A stretch of 64,000 nt of DNA from Paramarasmius palmivorus (lineage: Eukaryota > Basidiomycota > Agaricomycetes > Agaricales > Marasmiaceae): contig JAYKXP010000016.1 of NCBI GenBank assembly GCA_037176845.1, positions 248,001-312,000 of the forward strand. The letters run 5' to 3'. The notes beneath the pieces were generated by a model. The model was not told the origin of the DNA, searched no databases, and saw nothing but the letters and a program-made list of their open reading frames with translations. Position 1 is the stretch's first letter, and each line of letters starts with the position of its first letter. Below, one piece after another: positions 26,173-37,077 of this stretch. The translations under genes and the position numbers were made by a program.

Positions 26173-26298
26173 ATGAGAAAGAAAAAATCCAAGTCATCGC
26201 GAGAGAAGGCTATGGACCGTTTCTCAACTCTCCCTACTGAAATCATCTGCCTCATTTTGGCGGACCTTGACACCGTGAGCGTCGCTCGTTGCGCCCAG
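26173..26298 (+). CDS. F-box protein gene, first exon, cut off from the rest by a mobile element
   Basis: ATG at 26173 reads MRKKKSKSSREKAMDRFSTL, then an F-box core PTEIICLILADLDTVSVARC and AQ at the exon end (26298). F-box proteins recruit substrates to SCF ubiquitin ligases through Skp1. The donor site GTAACG follows immediately at 26299, and the mobile element starts 10 nt later. The continuation (VCRRLESVAKTSRIY) begins at 37078. A second in-frame Met at 26212 (MDRFSTLPTE) is also a possible start. The F-box is complete in this exon apart from its last helix, VCRRLES, which lies in the next exon beyond the element. Confidence 0.72.
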
Positions 26299-26301
26299 GT
26301 A

Positions 26302-26308
26302 ACGTGTC
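26302..26308. repeat. Target-site duplication, left copy (ACGTGTC)
   Basis: The 7-mer ACGTGTC directly precedes the left terminal inverted repeat and recurs at 37028-37034 directly after the right one. The flanking bases differ (a before the left copy; t after the right copy), so seven is the full length seen here. Confidence 0.85.
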
Positions 26309-26680
26309 CACCTTTGGTTCCCAAGTAAGCCGTCATATTTGATGGGCCTACGGGGGTACACTGGCCCATCAAATCAGACTCAAAAACTTTTACGCACCTG
26401 CCCTTCTTTTCCACCCTCGGATATCTCAAATAATTTTCTTTAATTCTCACCTTTCGCAGCCAAAGTCGCGACTCAGCTTCAAGTCTCTGTTTGCTCAAAG
26501 TCGGCAACTCCCGTTCCGCGGTCTCGTTACCTCCTTCCTAAACCGTCTTGCCGTTGCACATGTGCAACGGCAGTTCTTTTCCTCTCGAGTCTTTTCATCA
26601 TCTTTCATCATTCCCTTCGCGCGCGACTTCCCGACAACCGTATCCCGCCCCCTTCCTTATCAAGAAATTTCGCCGACGTT
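26309..26680 (+). repeat. Left terminal inverted repeat of the KDZ element
   Basis: Base n in this repeat pairs with base 63336-n on the right. Mismatches are seen near 26415 and at 26667-26668 only. It contains two internal palindromic parts: an 11-nt stem (TTTGATGGGCC at 26338-26348 with its complement at 26363-26373) and a perfect 24-bp palindrome at 26549-26572 (GCCGTTGCACATGTGCAACGGC plus one base each side). The transposase ATG lies only 36 bp inside, so the repeat probably carries its promoter. Confidence 0.9.
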
Positions 26681-26715
26681 TCCTCAAGACCATCTATTTT
26701 CTGTTTCGTTTACAT

Positions 26716-29700
26716 ATGGGCCGCAACAAGAAACGATATGGCTCTTCAAGAAGTGTCTCTTTCATCTACGGAGACCCGGTGAAAAGGAATGGGAAGCCGG
26801 TCCTGCAGGAGCAGGTCCAATTAACGCAGAGAAAGGAAGCTTGGGAGGCAGATAGGGATAAGGCAGCGGCTCTGTTCAGTGGTACGTCGCCATGTTTTTG
26901 TCATCAATTCATTTTTTGAATCACGGAATCTCAGCAATGTCCTATCCTGCTCGTGATACTGTCGGCGATCCTGGACCAGCAGGGGACTATGACTCCGACA
27001 ATGACAGCCACAACATCACGGGCGATACCACCGATAGCCAAGCAATTGATATGAGCAATCTGCCACCTCCGCCTGGTCAAGAAGGCCTCATCAACAGTCA
27101 TGCTGGAGGGGAATATGATATGTACACGCTAACAAGCACATTGACTTCCAAAACTCGGTGAGTGTTCTCATTGTATCATTCAAGTCGGCTTCTTATTCAT
27201 TACCCACCCAGTCGTTCCGATGACAGAACTCGCGCCGATCGGATTCAAAAGCAAGTTGAATCGTGGGCATCACAGCTTCCCATGATCATCAAATCATACC
27301 TTGCCCACAAGGCAAGAGGTACTCCCACAAACGGTTCTATAGAGGAGACGTTCACAATGCCTGTCATTGACTTGAACGGTATGTCTTGTTATTCATTCAG
27401 CGGCCTGCCATTCATCGACACTAATAATTTGGTCTACAGAAAGTCGTACTCGGACCTTTTTCCATCCGGCCGGATCCTCGGGTGTGAATGACAGTCTTGC
27501 GCAGCATGGTTACCTTGGCGCGACGCCTGACAGACCTCAAATTGCTTTTCCGTTCCATATGTTTCATGTTTTTCGCCAAATTCGTCGTGTATGTCCAAAG
27601 TTCAATATAGATGCTCTTTCAAAGGCCCTTCAACATATACATGGTGTGAGTGACAAACATAGTACAGTAGAATCCGTTCATTTATTCTGGTCATCAGCTA
27701 CCTAGAGACGAACATCTAGAAAATCAATTACGCGGTGCCTACGACACTTATCTCGCTATTCAACGGCAACTCAAGACGCGAACGTTGCAATCACTAAGCC
27801 GTGATGACTTCAAGTCTTTCACGTCACACATATGTCCGCCGTGCACCTATGAACTTCAGGGTGAAGTTCCTTTGCAGCCGAGGATGCTAATATCCATAGA
27901 CGGCAATAATTCAGCGAAGCTTGTAGCTTCGGAGGTCCGCTCAGGTCAGGAGCGTATTGACACAAGACACCTCCCAAGTTTTCGGTGGCTGGAACCTGAG
28001 GAGGTTGATAGATTTGCTAATGAGGTAAAGGCAGGGCGAACCCATACCAGTGCCGTGAGTCATTGATTTGGCCGCCGACTCCTGTTAACGGCTAAAACAT
28101 CAATCAGACCGATGCGATGGATGTTGATCAAGGCGTCAATCGTCCTACCGACAACTCAGGCCCCGACAGTTCCGATGAAGTGGCATGGCTCAACAAGAAC
28201 GAGACAGAGGAACTAGCGTCCTGCGATGATACATGTGTTGAACGCTGGAAGGCTGCAGGTCCTGAGTCGCAGAAGAAAATGTTCTCACTCTTCGCGATCT
28301 CGGGTGTTTTCATAGCCGTTTGCCGACATGGACACATTCTTTCCTTATGTGACATGATACGGAGTGGTGAATTGTGCGTCATTGCTACTTTTGATCATTC
28401 CATGGAACTAACATAACGAGAATCAGAATGAAATACCCTCTTGCAACTGTTAACGCGCTCATCGACGGCTATGGTGACAATCTTGGAATTGGTTACGATA
28501 TCTGGTGTGCCTTTACCAAGACCATCAAACGAAGTCCCTTGTTAGGCAGAAAATTCATGGAGAGCAAGATGACAGGTGTGGTCCCAGCCTTCCATGGATA
28601 TGCGCACAACCGCCCATGTCAGACTGGGTATCATCCCAAGTACAGAGAGGGTGTCGGGATCGAAGACTTCGAAGGCTGTGAACGGATCAATTCTCTTTCC
28701 AACCAATATGCATCAACGACACGGCTCACAACCCGATTTCATCGGCGGCAGACTTACCAGGAGTTCATGGACTTCAATGACGAAGACAAGTTTGCATCAT
28801 CTGGTACGTGTTTCATGTGATGTTAATGCCTAATAGGTTAAACGTGTCTGCTAGCCGACTTCATCTACCAGAATTATCGTCAGGCAGTTGAGCATCTTGC
28901 ACGAAACCAACATGTTTTCGAAGAACTTTGTGAAACGCTCAAGATATCTCCAGCTGACTGCGAGAGTTTCTTGGAGATGGAGATTCAGTACTTCAAGACT
29001 CCATCAACTCTTTCCGAGGATCTGGACAAGGAAGAGGAATATGTCAACTTGCTCCGAAAGCTCTGGGCGGCCGAGTACGTATGATTTGTTCCTTATCAAC
29101 GTTGCTTCATTATGTCTTACAGGAAGGCATCTACCACCGCACATGCCGAATGGAAAAAGCTCGGCACATCTGCAGCGCGTGGTTGGACTGATAAGCAAAT
29201 TCGGAGGGTAAAGGCACGGAATACGTCAACATTCACCAATCTCGGGACACTTCAGGAGCAAGTTGCTTGTTTTGAGGACGACCATGGAATATATCCTCGA
29301 TGGAATCCATTCGATCCTGAATTCCTTACCGCTCAAGACAACATCCACGAGGCTGAATATCGTCGTGCCGTTGAGGAATTGCATCATTCTGTCGCGGCTC
29401 GGCTATTGGAAATGTCAAAACTTTCCGCAAGTGGACTTTGTGAGTTCCCTGTTACTGTTTTCAGTAGAAATTCTGATCGAATCTAGGTTATAAACAACGC
29501 GACAAGATCACCAATGCCCTCAAGGCGCGTGCTGGTGCTGTCCGCAGTGCGCTAGATCGCCATAATGCTGCTGCTGCAAAGATCCAAGGCCGTGAACCAA
29601 TCGTCTGGGACGATATCGTAAAAATGGTCTCTCTAGCTGACTTGGACTATCTGAAGGACACACGCCTTGACATCCGGACAGTTCCCTGGGCCAAGCCGGA

Positions 29701-30294
29701 GAACCGGAATGCAATGGAGCTCTACTTTGGTCTGGAACGTGCAAGGGAAGAAATCAATCGTCTGAATGTCGAGATTAAGCGGCTTATCACATTCATGATT
29801 GATGATGAAGCTGATTTCTGGCTCGCGATTGAAGAGATCGTTACCGGGGATACAGAGCCAACGCAGGAGCAATTGGATTTCAAGATGCACTTACAGCGGG
29901 AATATTGGAGGAGAAAGGCACTTCATTGGAGAATGGCAGAGCGTCTTCTGCTTATAAGCAGACTTCCAGGATTCAATGGTATGTTATGAACTTATTTTCT
30001 GAATCTATTTGTTGACTCTCAGCTGGATTTACAGGTGATTTGATACCCGGACATCGTGTAGACCGGGTGACGTTCAAAACGGCATTGGCACCGCTACCCC
30101 AATGGGCATCTCAAGTTCTTGGAATTTCGCGTGAGCCGTTGGCTTGGGAGAGTGACACTCCTCCCATGTATACACATTCGTCAACTGTGTCTGGCAGGGC
30201 GTCATTGGAAGGTGAGACTTTAGAGCTGTTTAATGAGCGAGGAATAGAGCCAGAACATCTAGTTACATTCATGGAAAAGGTCTCGCTAGAATAG
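26716..30294 (+). CDS. KDZ (Kyakuja-Dileera-Zisupton) family transposase
   Basis: This is presumed to cut and move the surrounding element; KDZ enzymes have an RNase H-like fold. ATG at 26716 begins MGRNKKRYGSSRSVSFIYGD. After an acidic N-region come MFHVFRQIRRVCPKFNID, HICPPCTYELQG, then RMLISIDGNNSAKLV with the first candidate catalytic Asp. The strongest family block follows: KYPLATVNALIDGYGDNLGI, YDIWCAF (second candidate Asp), VVPAFHGYAHNRPCQTGYHP and GIEDFEGCERINSLSN. A helical C-terminal region contains WDDIVKMVSLADLDYLKD and AREEINRLNVEIKRLI. The gene ends FMEKVSLE with TAG at 30292-30294. About nine introns are removed, and I find no stop or frameshift in the joined frame, so it may be functional. 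Its stop lies 6 bp from the stop of the next, opposite gene. Confidence 0.88.
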
Positions 30295-30299
30295 TCACG

Positions 30300-31212
30300 T
30301 CATGTAGTCAAAATTTGTCTGATATATTTACTCGTCCCTATCCCGCGTTGGTCTGTTTTCCTAAGATTTGAATCAGACGTTTGCAGTATTCCTTCAAGTT
30401 GGCAATCTTCACACTCACTGAGTCGTCGCATTCTTTCCTTCTCTGACAAAATTGAACGATGAGATGCACGATACTTGGCAGCAGCTTCATTTGCCTTTGC
30501 TCGTGAACGCTTCCTGGTCACTTGTATCAGCCTTTGAGGACAGAAAACAAGTATTGAACACGCGCCTATTAGTCGTCTTGGGTAACTCCATACTGTCATT
30601 GCCATTGGAAGTGCTCTCCTTATTGGGCCTGATTGATTAACAGTCGAATCAGAATCCTTGCACTCGCAGAAATTCGGTGACACGTACTCTAACCCCTGTT
30701 GAGTAGTCACAGAAATCTCCGAGTCCATCTTGTGTTGCTGAACCTTCTCCTTGAGCCGGTCAATGAGTTTCCTATTGCCTATGCTTCTGTCAGTAACAAA
30801 AGGACCCGAATAACATGCTGTACATACTCTCATTGGTTGCTTGTTCAACCTCAAGTTTGGTTTGTAGGGCATTGATAGACGACAGCAATTCATCTACGTC
30901 GCCACGCTCATCGCTAAGCGACTTCTCCAACTTCTTGATCATCCCGCGCTGCTCCTTGATGACTTCTTTCAAACGGATAGCCTTCTCCTGGTATGTTTCT
31001 GCCAGTCCTCGTGACTCTTCAACCTGATCTATCAGGGTGTCTTGATCTGATATATAGTGGAAGAGACGATTGTTCAATTCATACACCTTTTCCTTGAGTT
31101 CGTCATATGTGAGCTCAAGGTCATCAGGGAAATCATTGACAGGGCGGGATAGTGAGGGAGAGGGAGAGGGAGAAGGAGAGTAACCGGGTGAGGATGGTGG
31201 GTGTGGATCCAT
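30300..31212 (-). CDS. Coiled-coil protein carried by the KDZ element, function unknown
   Basis: ATG at 31212 starts MDPHPPSSPGYSPSPSPSPS, a Pro/Ser-rich head. A long coiled coil follows: LELTYDELKEKVYELNNRLF, YQEKAIRLKEVIKEQRGMIK and ALQTKLEVEQA. After one intron (donor near 30827) it continues IGNRKLIDRLKEKVQQHKM. A Cys-containing stretch (PNFCECKDSD) and a basic block (TRKRSRAKANEAAAKYR, then SECEDCQLEGIL) precede the stop at 30300-30302. The middle of the second exon may contain another intron; I could not settle it. I recognise no family. The location inside the element and the opposite strand to the transposase suggest an accessory protein, perhaps for dimerisation or DNA binding. Confidence 0.6.
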
Positions 31213-32190
31213 AACACGGTAGACGTTTAGAGACAAATGTCTATTTGAAATATTATGCACGCGGAGGAGGAAGTATAGCATGGGCGCTTACTGTGCGCTT
31301 ACTCACAGCGTTTGTACTTGAATTATCGTTCAGGCTTTGTATATGCAGATAGAGTGACAACCAAAGGCTATAGCATAAGAGAATACATATCAACTCAATA
31401 ATCACGCAGTCAATAGCAGCCTGAATCATGCTGGCAACACATTACAGTGAAATTATCACCACGGAATCACCACGGAATCACCACGGAATCACCACGGCAT
31501 CACCACAGAATCACCACGCTCGAATGTTTTGCTAGTCCGCTGTTATTTAATGCTCTGCTACCGACTAAATAGGTTTCTGTATCATTCATATTACCATTCA
31601 ATGCTTTTCCGCGTGTTTTCTTGCTACCCTCCAGACTGTACTCGATGATATATCTCAGTGAAGGTAAAGCGTTCACGCGGAAGTATAATCTTAACAATCA
31701 CAGTACGAACATGTCGAGTTGAACCTAGCTATAACTTGACTTACACAAGTCTAATGTAATGGTGAGTAGAGATTCCAATGCCAAACTACAATGAGTATTC
31801 TAACACTTATTCCCAGTTCATAAGATCATGAATGGATGTAACTGGCAATGCGAATGTTGCAGAAGAACTTTGACTAGTATAGCCGCATGACAAATTGTCA
31901 ACCTAATTTGACGAAATCTCGACTTGTCCAGCTATATTTCTATTTTCCTGGGATGTACTCAGGTTGGTGCACCTGCTTGGGGGGTCAACTTTGGTTCAAT
32001 AGTGGTTATGCAGAAAGCTGAGTCCGAGCATGTTGTGCAACCGTTGATTTAGGAGGTGTGAATCTTTAGCCAAATATATCACCGGCAAGCTCGGCTCGAT
32101 CATATCAGGCGCACTGATTGGGATGATAAAAGGAATCACCTTGCCTCTTTCTTCACGCCACTCGCCTTTGCGACCCACTACATTTCTGTC
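31213..32190. other. Internal spacer of the KDZ element between divergent genes
   Basis: This roughly 980-bp, A/T-rich stretch separates the coiled-coil gene (-) from the next gene (+). It holds the 11-bp tandem repeat at 31455-31520 and presumably both promoters. The short open frames here show no family signal. Confidence 0.5.
31455..31520. repeat. Tandem repeat, six copies of an 11-bp unit
   Basis: The unit ATCACCACGGA occurs six times head to tail, with changes only in copies 4-6 (ending GGC, AGA, GCT). It lies in the middle of the element's spacer, about 240 bp upstream of the coiled-coil gene's start codon. It could be a protein-binding array. Confidence 0.85.
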
Positions 32191-33487
32191 ATGTCCAAGC
32201 CAACCCCCAATTCCTCTGCAAAAGCCTTTGACGGTGATGATGACATTGTTGTCATCTTCGTCTATCCTCGGGACCGGGTCTACACAACCTCTTGGGGAGC
32301 CTCTCGATATGGTGTCTATAATATATCTGACTAGTGCGTCCCTGTTGACAAGATAAAGCCATAACCTCAGCTAATAGTTTTATAGCCCGTTCGTTCTCGG
32401 AGGCGCAAATCACCCGCCATTTCCCCTCAATATCGTTTGTCGCCGGTCTATCGCAAATCGGGTCTTTCCCTTGGTGATCAGCATGGTCGAAGAGATCTTC
32501 ACCGCCGGCATTCAGGACAGCGCCGACAATGTAATATCCTTCCTGCATACGTCCGACTCCTTTCTGGAAGTCTGCCGTATCATGGATGAGGAATCGGTTC
32601 TATTCTGGGCCATTATTCTGGGCAAGCGTGTGGGTGTCTATACTAACGAGTAAGTATCCGTCTTATCAACCTGGCACTTGCACTGAAAATAATATAGGCA
32701 TGCCGCTGAAACCTCTTGGGCCATGCGTTCAGGCCTATCCAACAAGACCATCCAGACCCACAGCTCATTTATGGGGGCTGTTTTTGCCATGATTAATCAT
32801 GGCCGGAGCCCTCGTTACGACTGGGTGTCATCTGTGTTGACCCCAGTATCGGCTGCCGGCAACGTACCACCATCCGAGGCAGCTTCACCATTGGGTCAAC
32901 AACCAGATGTGCCCCAGACTCCGAGTCGAAAGAAGGGCAAGGGCAAACGGTCTCCATCGCCGGATGAGTACGATAAGATTCTGGAAGCCGGTAAGTCAAC
33001 ACTATTATTTTTTTTGACAACTATTAACTCATTCTCAGAAGCTAAGGCTGAGCAAGCTGCTGCTGCAGCATCCTTACTTCGTCAGTCACCCGCTCGGACA
33101 AGGTTAGGATCACCGGCAACCCCTTCAAGACATGGTGCAGCCTCTACTTCTAGCAGCCGTCTTCCATCTACGCCCACCACTACGAGCAAAGCACCCTCTT
33201 CCACCATCAAATCCTCGCGCCAGCTAGAGGGATTTGATGGTGTACGTGCTGTTGATGGAGAAGGTATTCAGCCGCGCGACTTTACGGCTCGACTTGGTGA
33301 TGCGGGCTGGGCGTTTTTCAACTGCTTCCGCTTTTCCCGACGCGTGGTAGATCAGATAGGCGTCCTTTTTGCAACTTCGGATTCAATGGAGGACTTTATT
33401 GACACCATGGCCATTTGCTTTGTCGAGGATGATCTGCCTCGGGCTCAAGTTGAATACATCTATTTCTTGTTCCATTCCCGCCTGTAA
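32191..33487 (+). CDS. KDZ-element cargo protein with a candidate RNase H1-N/viroplasmin-like segment
   Basis: ATG at 32191 begins MSKPTPNSSAKAFDGDDDIV. Three introns are removed (donors near 32332, 32649 and 32990). Around residues 135-170 the sequence FWAIILGKRVGVYTNE, WAMRSGLSNKTIQTHSSF and MGAVFAMI follows the pattern of the RNase H1 N-terminal (hybrid-binding, viroplasmin-like) domain: aromatic, hydrophobic, GKxxGVY, then SGxSN, then a small-hydrophobic end. This resemblance is by eye only. A disordered Ser/Pro/Lys region (SRKKGKGKRSPSPDEYDK) and a C-terminal region (GWAFFNCFRFSRRVVDQIGV, MEDFIDTMAICFVEDDLP) follow; the gene ends YFLFHSRL at 33487. The C-terminal part I do not recognise. 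An RNA/DNA-hybrid-binding accessory role is only a hypothesis. Confidence 0.6.
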
Positions 33488-33730
33488 TGTATAACTAGCC
33501 ATCGACACTTGTATCAAGCCTAAGCCAATCTCTCTATCAATAACAATTTGACTATCTGTTGTCCGAGTTTATCGCATTCATATAGAGTCGCATGGATTGT
33601 GTCCAAAATAAGTTATACCGAAATTCTGATGGAATGTCCGTAGTCAGGAACACTCGTCAAATATATCTGTACATCAAATTTGTGTCATAGCTTGCTCTTA
33701 TTTTCAAGCCACATTCAGCCACTGCTAACA

Positions 33731-34298
33731 ATGCCAGTCGAACACATTGTACGAAACGGCAAGCGTCTGGTTAGGGTGAGTGTGTATGATACTCATTAAT
33801 GTTGAGATACTAACCATTGTCAGATTACTGAGCCTAAACCACCACTGCTGACTCCGGTCACTCCAGAATATCTTGAGGAGTGTCGGCGTCGCGACCAAGG
33901 TGAGATAAATCATTGTTAATGCTCCTGACCTTTGGCTAATCTAATACATAGAGGAAAAGCGAGAGCGTCGAAGGAAAGAGAGGAATGAGACTTATCTGGA
34001 ACGCATGCTGAGACAGCAAAGGAAGGCTGCTTGGGAGCTTCGCTATTATGGAGAAATTGCACGAGGTCAGCTTGAGCAAGGTGTCTCTCGCAATCGGTTG
34101 CCAAAACATCTTCTCCAAGGGTTGGAGCATCTGGAGATTGTTGAGGAGATGTCTGCTCGCACGGCAGAATATTCAAGCCGGTTTGAGAGCGTGCCGGAGG
34201 ATGGTTCTGGGGACGCAGAATCGGACCTTGAGATCTCTGACGGCGGGATTTCAAATGCGTCCCCGAATATCACACCTGGAAACGCAAATGTAGAGTAG
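33731..34298 (+). CDS. Small charged KDZ-element protein, function unknown
   Basis: ATG at 33731 gives MPVEHIVRNGKRLVR. Two short introns join it to ITEPKPPLLTPVTPEYLEEC and to a strongly charged helix (EEKRERRRKERNETYLERML). The rest contains LPKHLLQGLEHLEIVEEMSA and an acidic tail (GSGDAESDLEISDGG), ending ITPGNANVE with TAG at 34296-34298. It is about 150 residues. I recognise no domain. The basic helix with an acidic tail would suit a nucleic-acid or protein bridging role. It lies in the same direction as, and close to, the genes on both sides. Confidence 0.55.
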
Positions 34299-34399
34299 AT
34301 ACTTTGTAACAGTCGTACCTATCCCTGCTCTTGAGCCCAGAATTTGGTGTCTTTGGTGTTCCTTCGTCGTTTCACCATTTCGCATCTCCCATTTCCAAC

Positions 34400-36568
34400 A
34401 TGCCTCGTCTAAAAAAGCCCAAGGCCCCAGTACCTCGCAATGTTATCTCCCCTCGTCTACGTATCACAAAAAAGGTCTATGTCAAGCTTACTGCGGCTGA
34501 GAAGCAGCGACGCTCAGAGGCAGCAAGCGAAAAGCGCGAGGAAATAAGGCAGGCCGTCGATACGTGGCTGGTGGACATTCTAGGACATGCACAAACACTT
34601 GCCGACAGGTTCAAGAAGAAGCCACGATACTTTCTCAATATGCTCTTCCAAAACAATATCCGAATGTCCAAGAAACAGACAAAGACCAACTCTTTCAATG
34701 CATGGAAGTCGGAGAAGGCGCTCGAGCTCAAAGAAGGTACGTATTTGTTACTCAAACCTTGACCTTAAGCTTATCTTCATTCCACTATAGCGGGGGAGCC
34801 TCCAATGGATGTCGAAGACCTGGTGGCGACATATCGACATGAGTACGACACGCTTGATGAGAAACAGAAGGCAGAAATGGTTCACGCCTTCGAGACGCGT
34901 CGTCAGATTGAAGAGTGGGAAAAAATCAAGTTCCCAACCCTCAAGTCTCGTATTCGAGGTGCAGCTGAGATTGTTCATGCTGTCGTCGAGCTTGTGAGCC
35001 TTGAACCAATTCTCTTCTGCCTCTGAACTGACCTCAATAAAGCTCAAGGTTGCAAAGCTTCGTTGTGGAATCGAAGCCATGTTTTTGATGGTCCGAAGTG
35101 ATCCAGACCCATTCATGGATCCAAAGTGGTTCTGGACGAACCCGAATTGGGTGGATTACATGAAGGCTATCTTGCGTCAAGGCCGTGGATTTGACCCCAA
35201 GATCATGGCGGCAAAGCTCGAGTCCTTTTCTATTGCGGGTTGTGATCCAAATAGTAAGTCGACAAATGAAGGTGTCAAAGATTTACTGACATTTCTTAGA
35301 TATGCTCAAGACCGTTGACGACCAGTCGAAATGGTACAAGACCTTGATTCGGGAGGAGATGCTGAGCCGACTTCGTGAGTACATTATCAATCTTTACATA
35401 CTCAGGAACTCACCATTCTCGCGCAGTCGACGCTGTTAATGAAGGATCGACACTCAAAATGGACTTTACGACCGTACCTTACGAGAAGTTCGACAAACTG
35501 GTCACATTCCCTCATGGCGTCGTTGTCAAGAACTGGCCATTTCCACAGTTCCAAAACCCCAGCAAACTGAGCAATACAGTCGAGCCACTCAAAGAGCTGT
35601 ATAACGGTCTTCGGAATGGCTCAATTGGGTTCGAACGGCTTTCTGACAAAGAGCATAAGGAGTGGGTGACAAAGTATGAGGAGGGGCTGAAGAGTGGTGC
35701 TATTCAGGTCAAGGCTCGCCGAGTGAGATCAGATGCCGGAAAGAAGCGAGGCCCACAGAAGGGGAAGCGTAAACGGACTGGGCCTGATGTTGGCAGGGAG
35801 GATGGCGAATGGGAAGACGTTGGTAGTGGGGATGAAGAAGAGGAGGATGCAGAGGAGGAATGGACTGGAATTGGTGGAGGAGATGATGAGCATGGTGTAG
35901 ATGGTGAAGACGAACGGCCTCGCAAGCGTACCAAGACGGCTGCTGCAAAACCTGCAGCTAAGACCAAGACTTCGAAGAAACCATCATCCAAACCACCTCG
36001 AGCTTCAAGATCCACTACTCAAACTTCAAGCAAGCCAAAGATGAAGCCGACATCGACACCCATACAGGAAGAAGACGAGCGTAGAGAAGGTGCAGGAGAA
36101 GAGATGCTGAACGAGCACCCCTCCGGCCTTACACCATCACCGAACAGTTCCGTCCCCGACGAGTGTCGAGTCTCTCCACGTTCTGCTTCCCCTCTTCATC
36201 CTATCCCTCCAACTCCTGACGAAGGCGATGTTGAACACGTTGATGGAGACCAAGGTGGAAGTAAAGGCAGTGGGAAAGGTGTTGACGCTGATGGAAACGT
36301 TGGTGATGGGATCATTGTCAATGACGTTGACGTTGACAGAGCAACGGGTAACGCACGTCGAGCTCCGCAGCCAAAGGTGGTGAAGCATTTTGGAGACGAT
36401 TGGCCTGGCCGACCACCACCTGGGAAGAAGCGTAAAGCGAACGGTGGTACTTTGACTAAGAAAGTGGGTACTGTGGGCAACAACGGATCAGCTAAAGGCA
36501 AGCCAAAACCCAAACCCGTAGGAAAAGCTGCCGAAGATCGTCAGAATAGACTTCAGCAGGACAGTTAG
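34400..36568 (+). CDS. KDZ-element protein with HMG-like N-terminal half and long disordered charged tail
   Basis: ATG at 34400 begins MPRLKKPKAPVPRNVISPRL. The N-half has an HMG-box-like layout: FLNMLFQNNIRMSKKQTKTN, FNAWKSEKALELKE and, after an intron, DLVATYRHEYDTLDEKQKAE. Central helical sequence includes AEIVHAVVELLKVAKLRCGI and FWTNPNWVDYMKAILRQGRG. A globular segment with FTTVPYEKFDKLVTFPHGVV and WPFPQFQNPSKL comes before the tail. The tail (about 250 residues) alternates Lys/Arg-rich blocks (GKKRGPQKGKRKRTG) with Asp/Glu/Gly-rich blocks and ends AEDRQNRLQQDS at 36568, only 87 bp before the right inverted repeat. About four introns are removed. DNA binding is inferred from the HMG resemblance and from nuclear-localisation-like blocks; I cannot name the family. 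Confidence 0.62.
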
Positions 36569-36655
36569 ATATACTTAGATAGACATGAATTTAAATTGAA
36601 TGATCATTATTATACATTACACTTGGGGGACTACAGAAGATGGCCACAAGGGAGG

Positions 36656-37027
36656 AACGTCGGCGAACGTTCTTGATAAGGAAGGGGGCGGGATACGGTT
36701 GTCGGGAAGTCGCGCGCGAAGGGAATGATGAAAGATGATGAAAAGACTCGAGAGGAAAAGAACTGCCGTTGCACATGTGCAACGGCAAGACGGTTTAGGA
36801 AGGAGGTAACGAGACCGCGGAACGGGAGTTGCCGACTTTGAGCAAACAGAGACTTGAAGCTGAGTCGCGACTTTGGCTGCGAAAGGTGAGAATTAAAGAA
36901 AATTATTTGAGATATCCGACGGTGGAAAAGAAGGGCAGGTGCGTAAAAGTTTTTGAGTCTGATTTGATGGGCCAGTGTACCCCCGTAGGCCCATCAAATA
37001 TGACGGCTTACTTGGGAACCAAAGGTG
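36656..37027 (-). repeat. Right terminal inverted repeat of the KDZ element
   Basis: This is the reverse complement of 26309-26680, with about 369 of 372 positions identical. The 24-bp palindrome falls at 36764-36787 and the 11-nt stem pair lies between 36963 and 36998. Inside 36656 the similarity to the left end is lost. Confidence 0.9.
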
Positions 37028-37034
37028 ACGTGTC
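37028..37034. repeat. Target-site duplication, right copy (ACGTGTC)
   Basis: This is identical to 26302-26308. After it the original intron continues with tctcagcaag and ends CAATTAG at 37077. Confidence 0.85.
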
Positions 37035-37077
37035 TCTCAGCAAGCCCCGTTGTACTTGCTTGTTGATCTTCAATTAG

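Follow-up and report, generated by a model that had tools for sequence, protein, structure and literature searches.

A complete KDZ transposon with long inverted repeats and four accessory genes in Paramarasmius palmivorus

Results

Structure and insertion site of the element

The window, a stretch of 64,000 nucleotides from Paramarasmius palmivorus, contains at positions 26309-37027 a complete DNA transposon of 10.7 kb, with terminal inverted repeats, a target duplication, a spliced KDZ transposase gene and four further intact genes. The left repeat (26309..26680, forward strand) starts with CACCTTTGGTTCCC, and the right repeat lies at 36656..37027 on the reverse strand. Both are 372 bp long and identical at 369/372 positions (3 mismatches), and the 7-bp sequence ACGTGTC directly adjoins the element on the left (26302..26308) and on the right (37028..37034), confirming the repeats of about 369 identical positions and the 7-bp duplication given in the initial annotation. 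Repeats of 372 bp at 99% identity with matched target duplications are not a product of chance.

Within the left repeat, a subterminal inverted repeat (ATTTGATGGGCC ... GGCCCATCAAAT; 26337..26374, forward strand) is a candidate protein-binding site. Only 1 of 200 shuffled sequences folded equally well at this window end, and the corresponding counts per 200 were 5 for C147, 0 for C78 and 3 for C36, among the related loci described below, vs 29 for C77, 29 for C3 and 30 for C92. A hairpin conserved across all ends was thus rejected, as the fold stood out from shuffled sequences at four of the seven ends and did not do so in three of the six relatives. The left repeat also holds a perfect 24-bp palindrome (26549..26572; mirror copy at 36764-36787), which is present in C51 too; a scan of seven repeat ends from six other relatives detected no perfect palindrome with arms of at least 7.

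The element occupies an intron (26299..37077, forward strand) of a host F-box gene, whose exon 1 spans 26212-26298 (F-box-like, E=1.3e-9). Joining the flanks restores the start of this gene, with an intron of 53 bp without the element and 10.8 kb with it. The 7-bp duplication corresponds to intron bases 4-10 and the element starts at base 11, which leaves the two splice sites in place. No empty allele was detected in the assembly, where the joined-flank query matched only the two window flanks.

Genes of the element

A splice-aware gene search of the window yielded five spliced, stop-free gene models for the element, those on the forward strand having introns of 44-61 bp with GT..AG ends. The KDZ transposase gene (26716..30294, forward strand) comprises 11 exons encoding 1020 aa. 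The protein matches the KDZ transposase domain PF18758 with E=1.1e-69 and 234.9 bits (cut-off 26.6), in agreement with the stop-free spliced transposase annotated initially, while its CxC1 match (E=0.086, 13.4 bits) falls below the cut-off of 26.9. The claim of four further intact genes was likewise borne out: all four models are free of stops, and those of g3 and g5 equal the full NCBI P. palmivorus proteins VNI00_005590 and VNI00_005592.

Adjoining the transposase gene on the reverse strand is a gene for a coiled-coil protein with a basic C-terminal KANEAAAKYRASHR motif (30300..31212). Its preferred predicted model has two exons (31212-30828 and 30778-30300) and 287 aa. This one-intron reading is favoured because C77 has a counterpart of the KANEAAAKYRASHR motif, KANEAAARYRATHR; a 205-aa model was set aside, its 3' end being probably wrong. 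A spacer (31213..32190) separates this gene from the divergent g3, and the related loci C3, C36 and C78 have a dioxygenase-like gene at the corresponding place. Tandem 11-bp units (ATCACCACGGA) occur in the spacer at 31455-31518, where the alignment with C51 has an 11-base gap.

The remaining three genes lie on the forward strand. The model of g3 (32191..33487; 4 exons, 382 aa) was obtained after adding one intron and has no known domain. The RNase H1-N-like character proposed for it initially is unsupported, as Pfam-domain and structure searches gave no RNase H1-N model or structure match, and its predicted fold is of low confidence (mean pLDDT 39.7), as is the g5 model. The small charged protein g4 (33731..34298; 3 exons, 155 aa) has no recognisable domain. 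For g5 (34400..36568; 5 exons, 655 aa), described earlier as HMG-like, an HMG-box-like region at about residues 95-151 lends this identity moderate support, while the full-length protein gave no Pfam match. A scan of viral contigs, made with poor patterns, detected no g5 relatives.

Related elements in the genome

When the genome was searched with the transposase, g3 and g5, matches to g5 were obtained on 11 contigs. Relatives of the transposase and g5 lie within 16 kb of each other at eight loci (the window, C51, C77, C3, C36, C78, C92 and C147); g5 matches with no transposase match nearby occur at C31, C82 and C167, and transposase matches without g5 at, for example, C13, C39 and C262. Both ends are in view at six elements (window, C77, C3, C78, C92 and C147), whose inverted repeats range from about 130 bp to 372 bp. 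All six have CACCTWWG ends (CACCT..AGGTG), and all except C78 have a perfect 7-bp duplication. In an unrooted tree built from transposases of this genome only, a branch with 100% support separates the window, C51 and C77 from the eight remaining loci.

Same-genome copies with the five genes in order, for which the initial annotation had suggested a search, were found. The C77 element (206048-216501) is bounded by inverted repeats and the duplication ACCATTC and preserves the order of the five genes, whose exons are between 27% (coiled-coil gene) and 84% (one g5 exon) identical to those of the window. The C51 copy (388127-396603) is 88% identical to the window at the DNA level and shares the gene order, with a truncated transposase: it lacks the first 2.26 kb, corresponding to a fifth of the element and half of the transposase. 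Further elements are found at C3 (1077702-1089994; inverted repeats of about 130 bp, duplication CCGGCTC), C92 (inverted repeats, duplication CTGAAGT) and C147 (inverted repeats, duplication TCGTTGA, with the end position shifted by two bases). C36 was counted without its left end, which lies outside the sequence examined. The C36 transposase seems to hold a retrotransposon-like insert: in translation, the KDZ transposase (exons at 147.9-153.5 kb) is interrupted by a Copia-gag-like segment that has the same piece on either side.

The C78 element (57848-71096) has 284-bp repeats and unlike flanks. A similar copy, C262 (8241-13182), is 96.6% identical over 4436 aligned positions, and 99.3% at the repeat end. 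The two appear to have exchanged halves, either in the genome by ectopic recombination or in the assembly, because the 7 bases adjacent to the left end of C262, AGTCTTA, are also the right flank of C78; the left flanks of the two differ. Such an exchanged appearance can arise when reads join at repeats, and the contig of C51 stops one base past its repeat. Both observations would fit an assembly artefact in which misjoining produced the inverted repeats or the gene set of the window element, an eventuality that the initial annotation had raised for the repeats. This explanation is nevertheless highly improbable, since like ends and 7-bp duplications recur at independent genome sites; the window's own duplication is perfect, its flanks match only themselves in the genome and join into the F-box intron, and relatives on other contigs share the plan of the element.

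Sequence exchange between copies

Alignment of the window with C51 revealed a 1.1-kb tract (30825..31929) with 11/1094 differences (1.0%), vs 881/7307 (12.1%) in the rest of the aligned element, where the lowest 1000-base stretch has 76 differences. The edges of the tract are sharp, and one of them falls within the coiled-coil gene. We read the tract as a probable product of recombination or gene conversion between element copies.

The initial description of the element as young is only partly right, as the nearest copy is 12% diverged and no second full-length copy of the window element was found in the genome. Together with the exchanged tract, these observations are what would be expected of a fossil, kept intact by chance or through gene conversion and now immobile. 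We regard this as rather unlikely, though well short of negligible: the reading frames and splice sites are intact, the target duplication is perfect and the repeats differ at only three positions, and the C78/C262 pair with its different left flanks points to recent movement or recombination in the wider group. The window element is possibly young and active.

A dioxygenase-like gene in other elements

At C3, C36 and C78, the order is a forward transposase, a reverse basic-motif gene, a reverse dioxygenase-like gene, and forward g3 and g5; the gene finder had fused neighbouring genes at these loci, and the models were split by eye. A small charged gene, also in reverse, follows the transposase in this order at C3 and C78 only. 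The g3 proteins of the three loci (those of C36 and C78 being our own models) share 22-23% identity with window g3, and those of C36 and C78 gave no hit in the genome search with g3. No g4 match was detected in C3, where the protein compared with window g4 was equalled by 288/500 shuffles. The small protein of C78 gave a weak, charge-rich match to g4, equalled by 0/500 shuffles for window g4 and 200/500 for C77 g4; g4 may be a moved relative of it. These comparisons of g3 and g4 covered C51, C77, C3, C36 and C78 and left out the middles of C92 and C147.

The dioxygenase-like gene is present at five other loci (C3, C36, C78, C92 and C147). At C92 and C147 the match lies between the transposase and g5, on the transposase strand in C147. 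The window element contains no dioxygenase or remnant of one, the best match of the C3 dioxygenase-like protein having E=2.7, and none was found in C51 or C77 among the matches listed. We considered the coiled-coil gene as a replacement for the dioxygenase and rejected this; its basic C-terminal part rather resembles the reverse-strand gene adjoining the transposase. From residue 201 on, the coiled-coil protein was matched as well by 1/1000 shuffles in comparison with that gene of C36 and by 0/1000 with that of C78, vs 6/1000 for the whole protein against C78; the comparison with C3 gave 120/1000.

By eye, an HxD..H..R motif can be read in the dioxygenase-like gene. The C3 and C36 proteins matched no Pfam family, no relevant PDB match was obtained for the dioxygenase-like proteins, and the genome matches to PF20515 (4) and PF12851 (2) are located away from the dioxygenase-like genes of C3, C36 and C78. 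For these reasons a TET/JBP identity was not assigned to the gene at these three loci and the name 'dioxygenase-like' was kept. The gene is plausibly of TET/JBP type and may be used against methylation.

Both this gene family and the KDZ family are greatly expanded in this genome, with at least 91 and at least 178 matches, respectively, counted exon by exon. The association of the two was assessed with 87 of the 91 dioxygenase-like matches (four second exons were dropped) and 145 of the at least 178 KDZ matches, a set that omits some matches and some second exons. Of the 87 dioxygenase-like loci, 44 lie within 5 kb of a KDZ hit of this set, vs about 1.9 expected by uniform chance, a figure that is too low because transposons cluster; 35 have no such hit within 8 kb. 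Because dioxygenase-like genes lie near KDZ hits genome-wide, we lean towards an old association. The dioxygenase may have been lost in the clade of the window or may have been gained in its sister group, since the transposase tree is unrooted and neither C13 (within 8 kb) nor C262 has a dioxygenase match among those listed.

Selection on the accessory genes

Selection was measured on the window/C51 pair, the synonymous sites of C77 being saturated. The dN/dS values were 0.106 for the shared part of the transposase, 0.136 for g3, 0.190 for g4 and 0.152 for g5, with dS for whole genes of 0.26-0.47. Within g5, residues 1-395 gave 0.062 and the remainder 0.359. No value is given for the coiled-coil gene because the copies exchanged its stretch. 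Thus g3, g4 and g5 are under purifying selection and, at 0.14-0.19, are constrained nearly as strictly as the transposase. Together with intact reading frames and recurrence in related copies, this suggests that the accessory genes are working parts of the element.

The alternative, that the element picked up all four genes as passenger cargo and that they would benefit, if anything, the host, draws on the variation of g4 and the dioxygenase-like gene between relatives, and a link to transposition is proven for none of the four. It is improbable given this constraint, the shared gene content and order of the diverged C77, and the g5 relatives that accompany the transposase at eight loci.

Discussion

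Placement in the KDZ superfamily follows from the PF18758 domain and from defined ends with a short duplication around the transposase, repeated in relatives. Iyer et al. 2014 reportedly found that KDZ elements as a rule encode further proteins, a divergent HMG domain among them, and that they are linked to TET/JBP genes; the window element differs from the elements so described in having no dioxygenase, and hence is not a TET-positive KDZ with a TET/JBP gene inside the element.

Among described groups, Kyakuja elements duplicate 7 bp of target, end in CA..TG, lack inverted repeats and carry TET/JBP genes (Kojima 2025, PMC12730594). The window element resembles the Kyakuja of Agaricomycetes in its KDZ transposase, 7-bp duplications (shared by four of the five relatives with both ends in view), CA..TG ends (in 6/6 elements) and possession of genes beyond the transposase. 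It differs from the two Laccaria Kyakuja families, reported to have no terminal inverted repeats and a TET/JBP gene (PMC12730594), in its 372-bp repeats and lack of a dioxygenase. Because of these repeats, we file it as KDZ and Kyakuja-like, not as Kyakuja. The mobile KDZ1, KDZ2 and KDZ3 of Cryptococcus (about 9-11 kb, 139-241-bp inverted repeats; PMC12810828) are similar in size, long inverted repeats and KDZ transposase, but are described with duplications of 8 bp (KDZ1) or 4-8 bp (KDZ2 and KDZ3) and a CxC1 domain, vs 7 bp and a sub-threshold CxC1 match in the window. Zisupton, of the same superfamily and likewise with inverted repeats, has 8-bp duplications (PMC12730594), vs 7 bp in the window element. 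In other Agaricomycetes, Marasmius oreades is described as rich in KDZ and Plavaka, with an inverted-repeat motif characterised by the authors (PMC8290104), and Pleurotus ostreatus as having 36 KDZ-type elements, with a CxC2 region ahead of those that are intact (PMC7641404).

The main text of PMC12730594 uses none of the words HMG, cargo and accessory, nor are KDZ and HMG mentioned in the accessible text of PMC8889193. No description of the exact five-gene set was found in the KDZ literature searched, which excluded one key paper, and we do not claim its absence from print. Large KDZ elements with extra genes are already known; what is new is a variant that lacks the dioxygenase and has a helper set under constraint.

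We conclude that the element is probably a complete cut-and-paste KDZ transposon of Kyakuja-like build with long repeats, whose accessory genes act as transposition helpers serving the element rather than the host. In the proposed mechanism, the KDZ transposase would cut at the CACCTWWG ends and insert them into target DNA with a stagger of 7 bp. Some other transposases and recombinases are assisted by HMG proteins in bringing ends together. The HMG-like g5 may bend or bridge the long repeats and thereby pair the ends, with the subterminal inverted repeat as a candidate binding site. The coiled-coil/basic protein and g4, the small charged protein, could be DNA-binding or regulatory partners, and g3 a conserved helper with no fold assigned. 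Counting against a helper role is the difference in accessory set between relatives, as seen in the missing g4 match of C3 and the low g3 identity. As a more tentative extension, which we think could well be wrong, the transposase, coiled-coil/basic protein, g3 and HMG-like bender might be obligate partners that co-evolve and perhaps act at the subterminal repeats, with the TET-like dioxygenase optional and dispensable in the window clade.

This mushroom genome is rich in KDZ elements (at least 178 exon-level domain matches), and their extra genes have been discussed in the literature consulted by way of TET/JBP dioxygenases. A constrained helper set without a dioxygenase would separate what such elements need for movement from what they need for escaping silencing. 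As the element is compact and has exact ends, one could reconstitute its transposition and delete the accessory genes one at a time.
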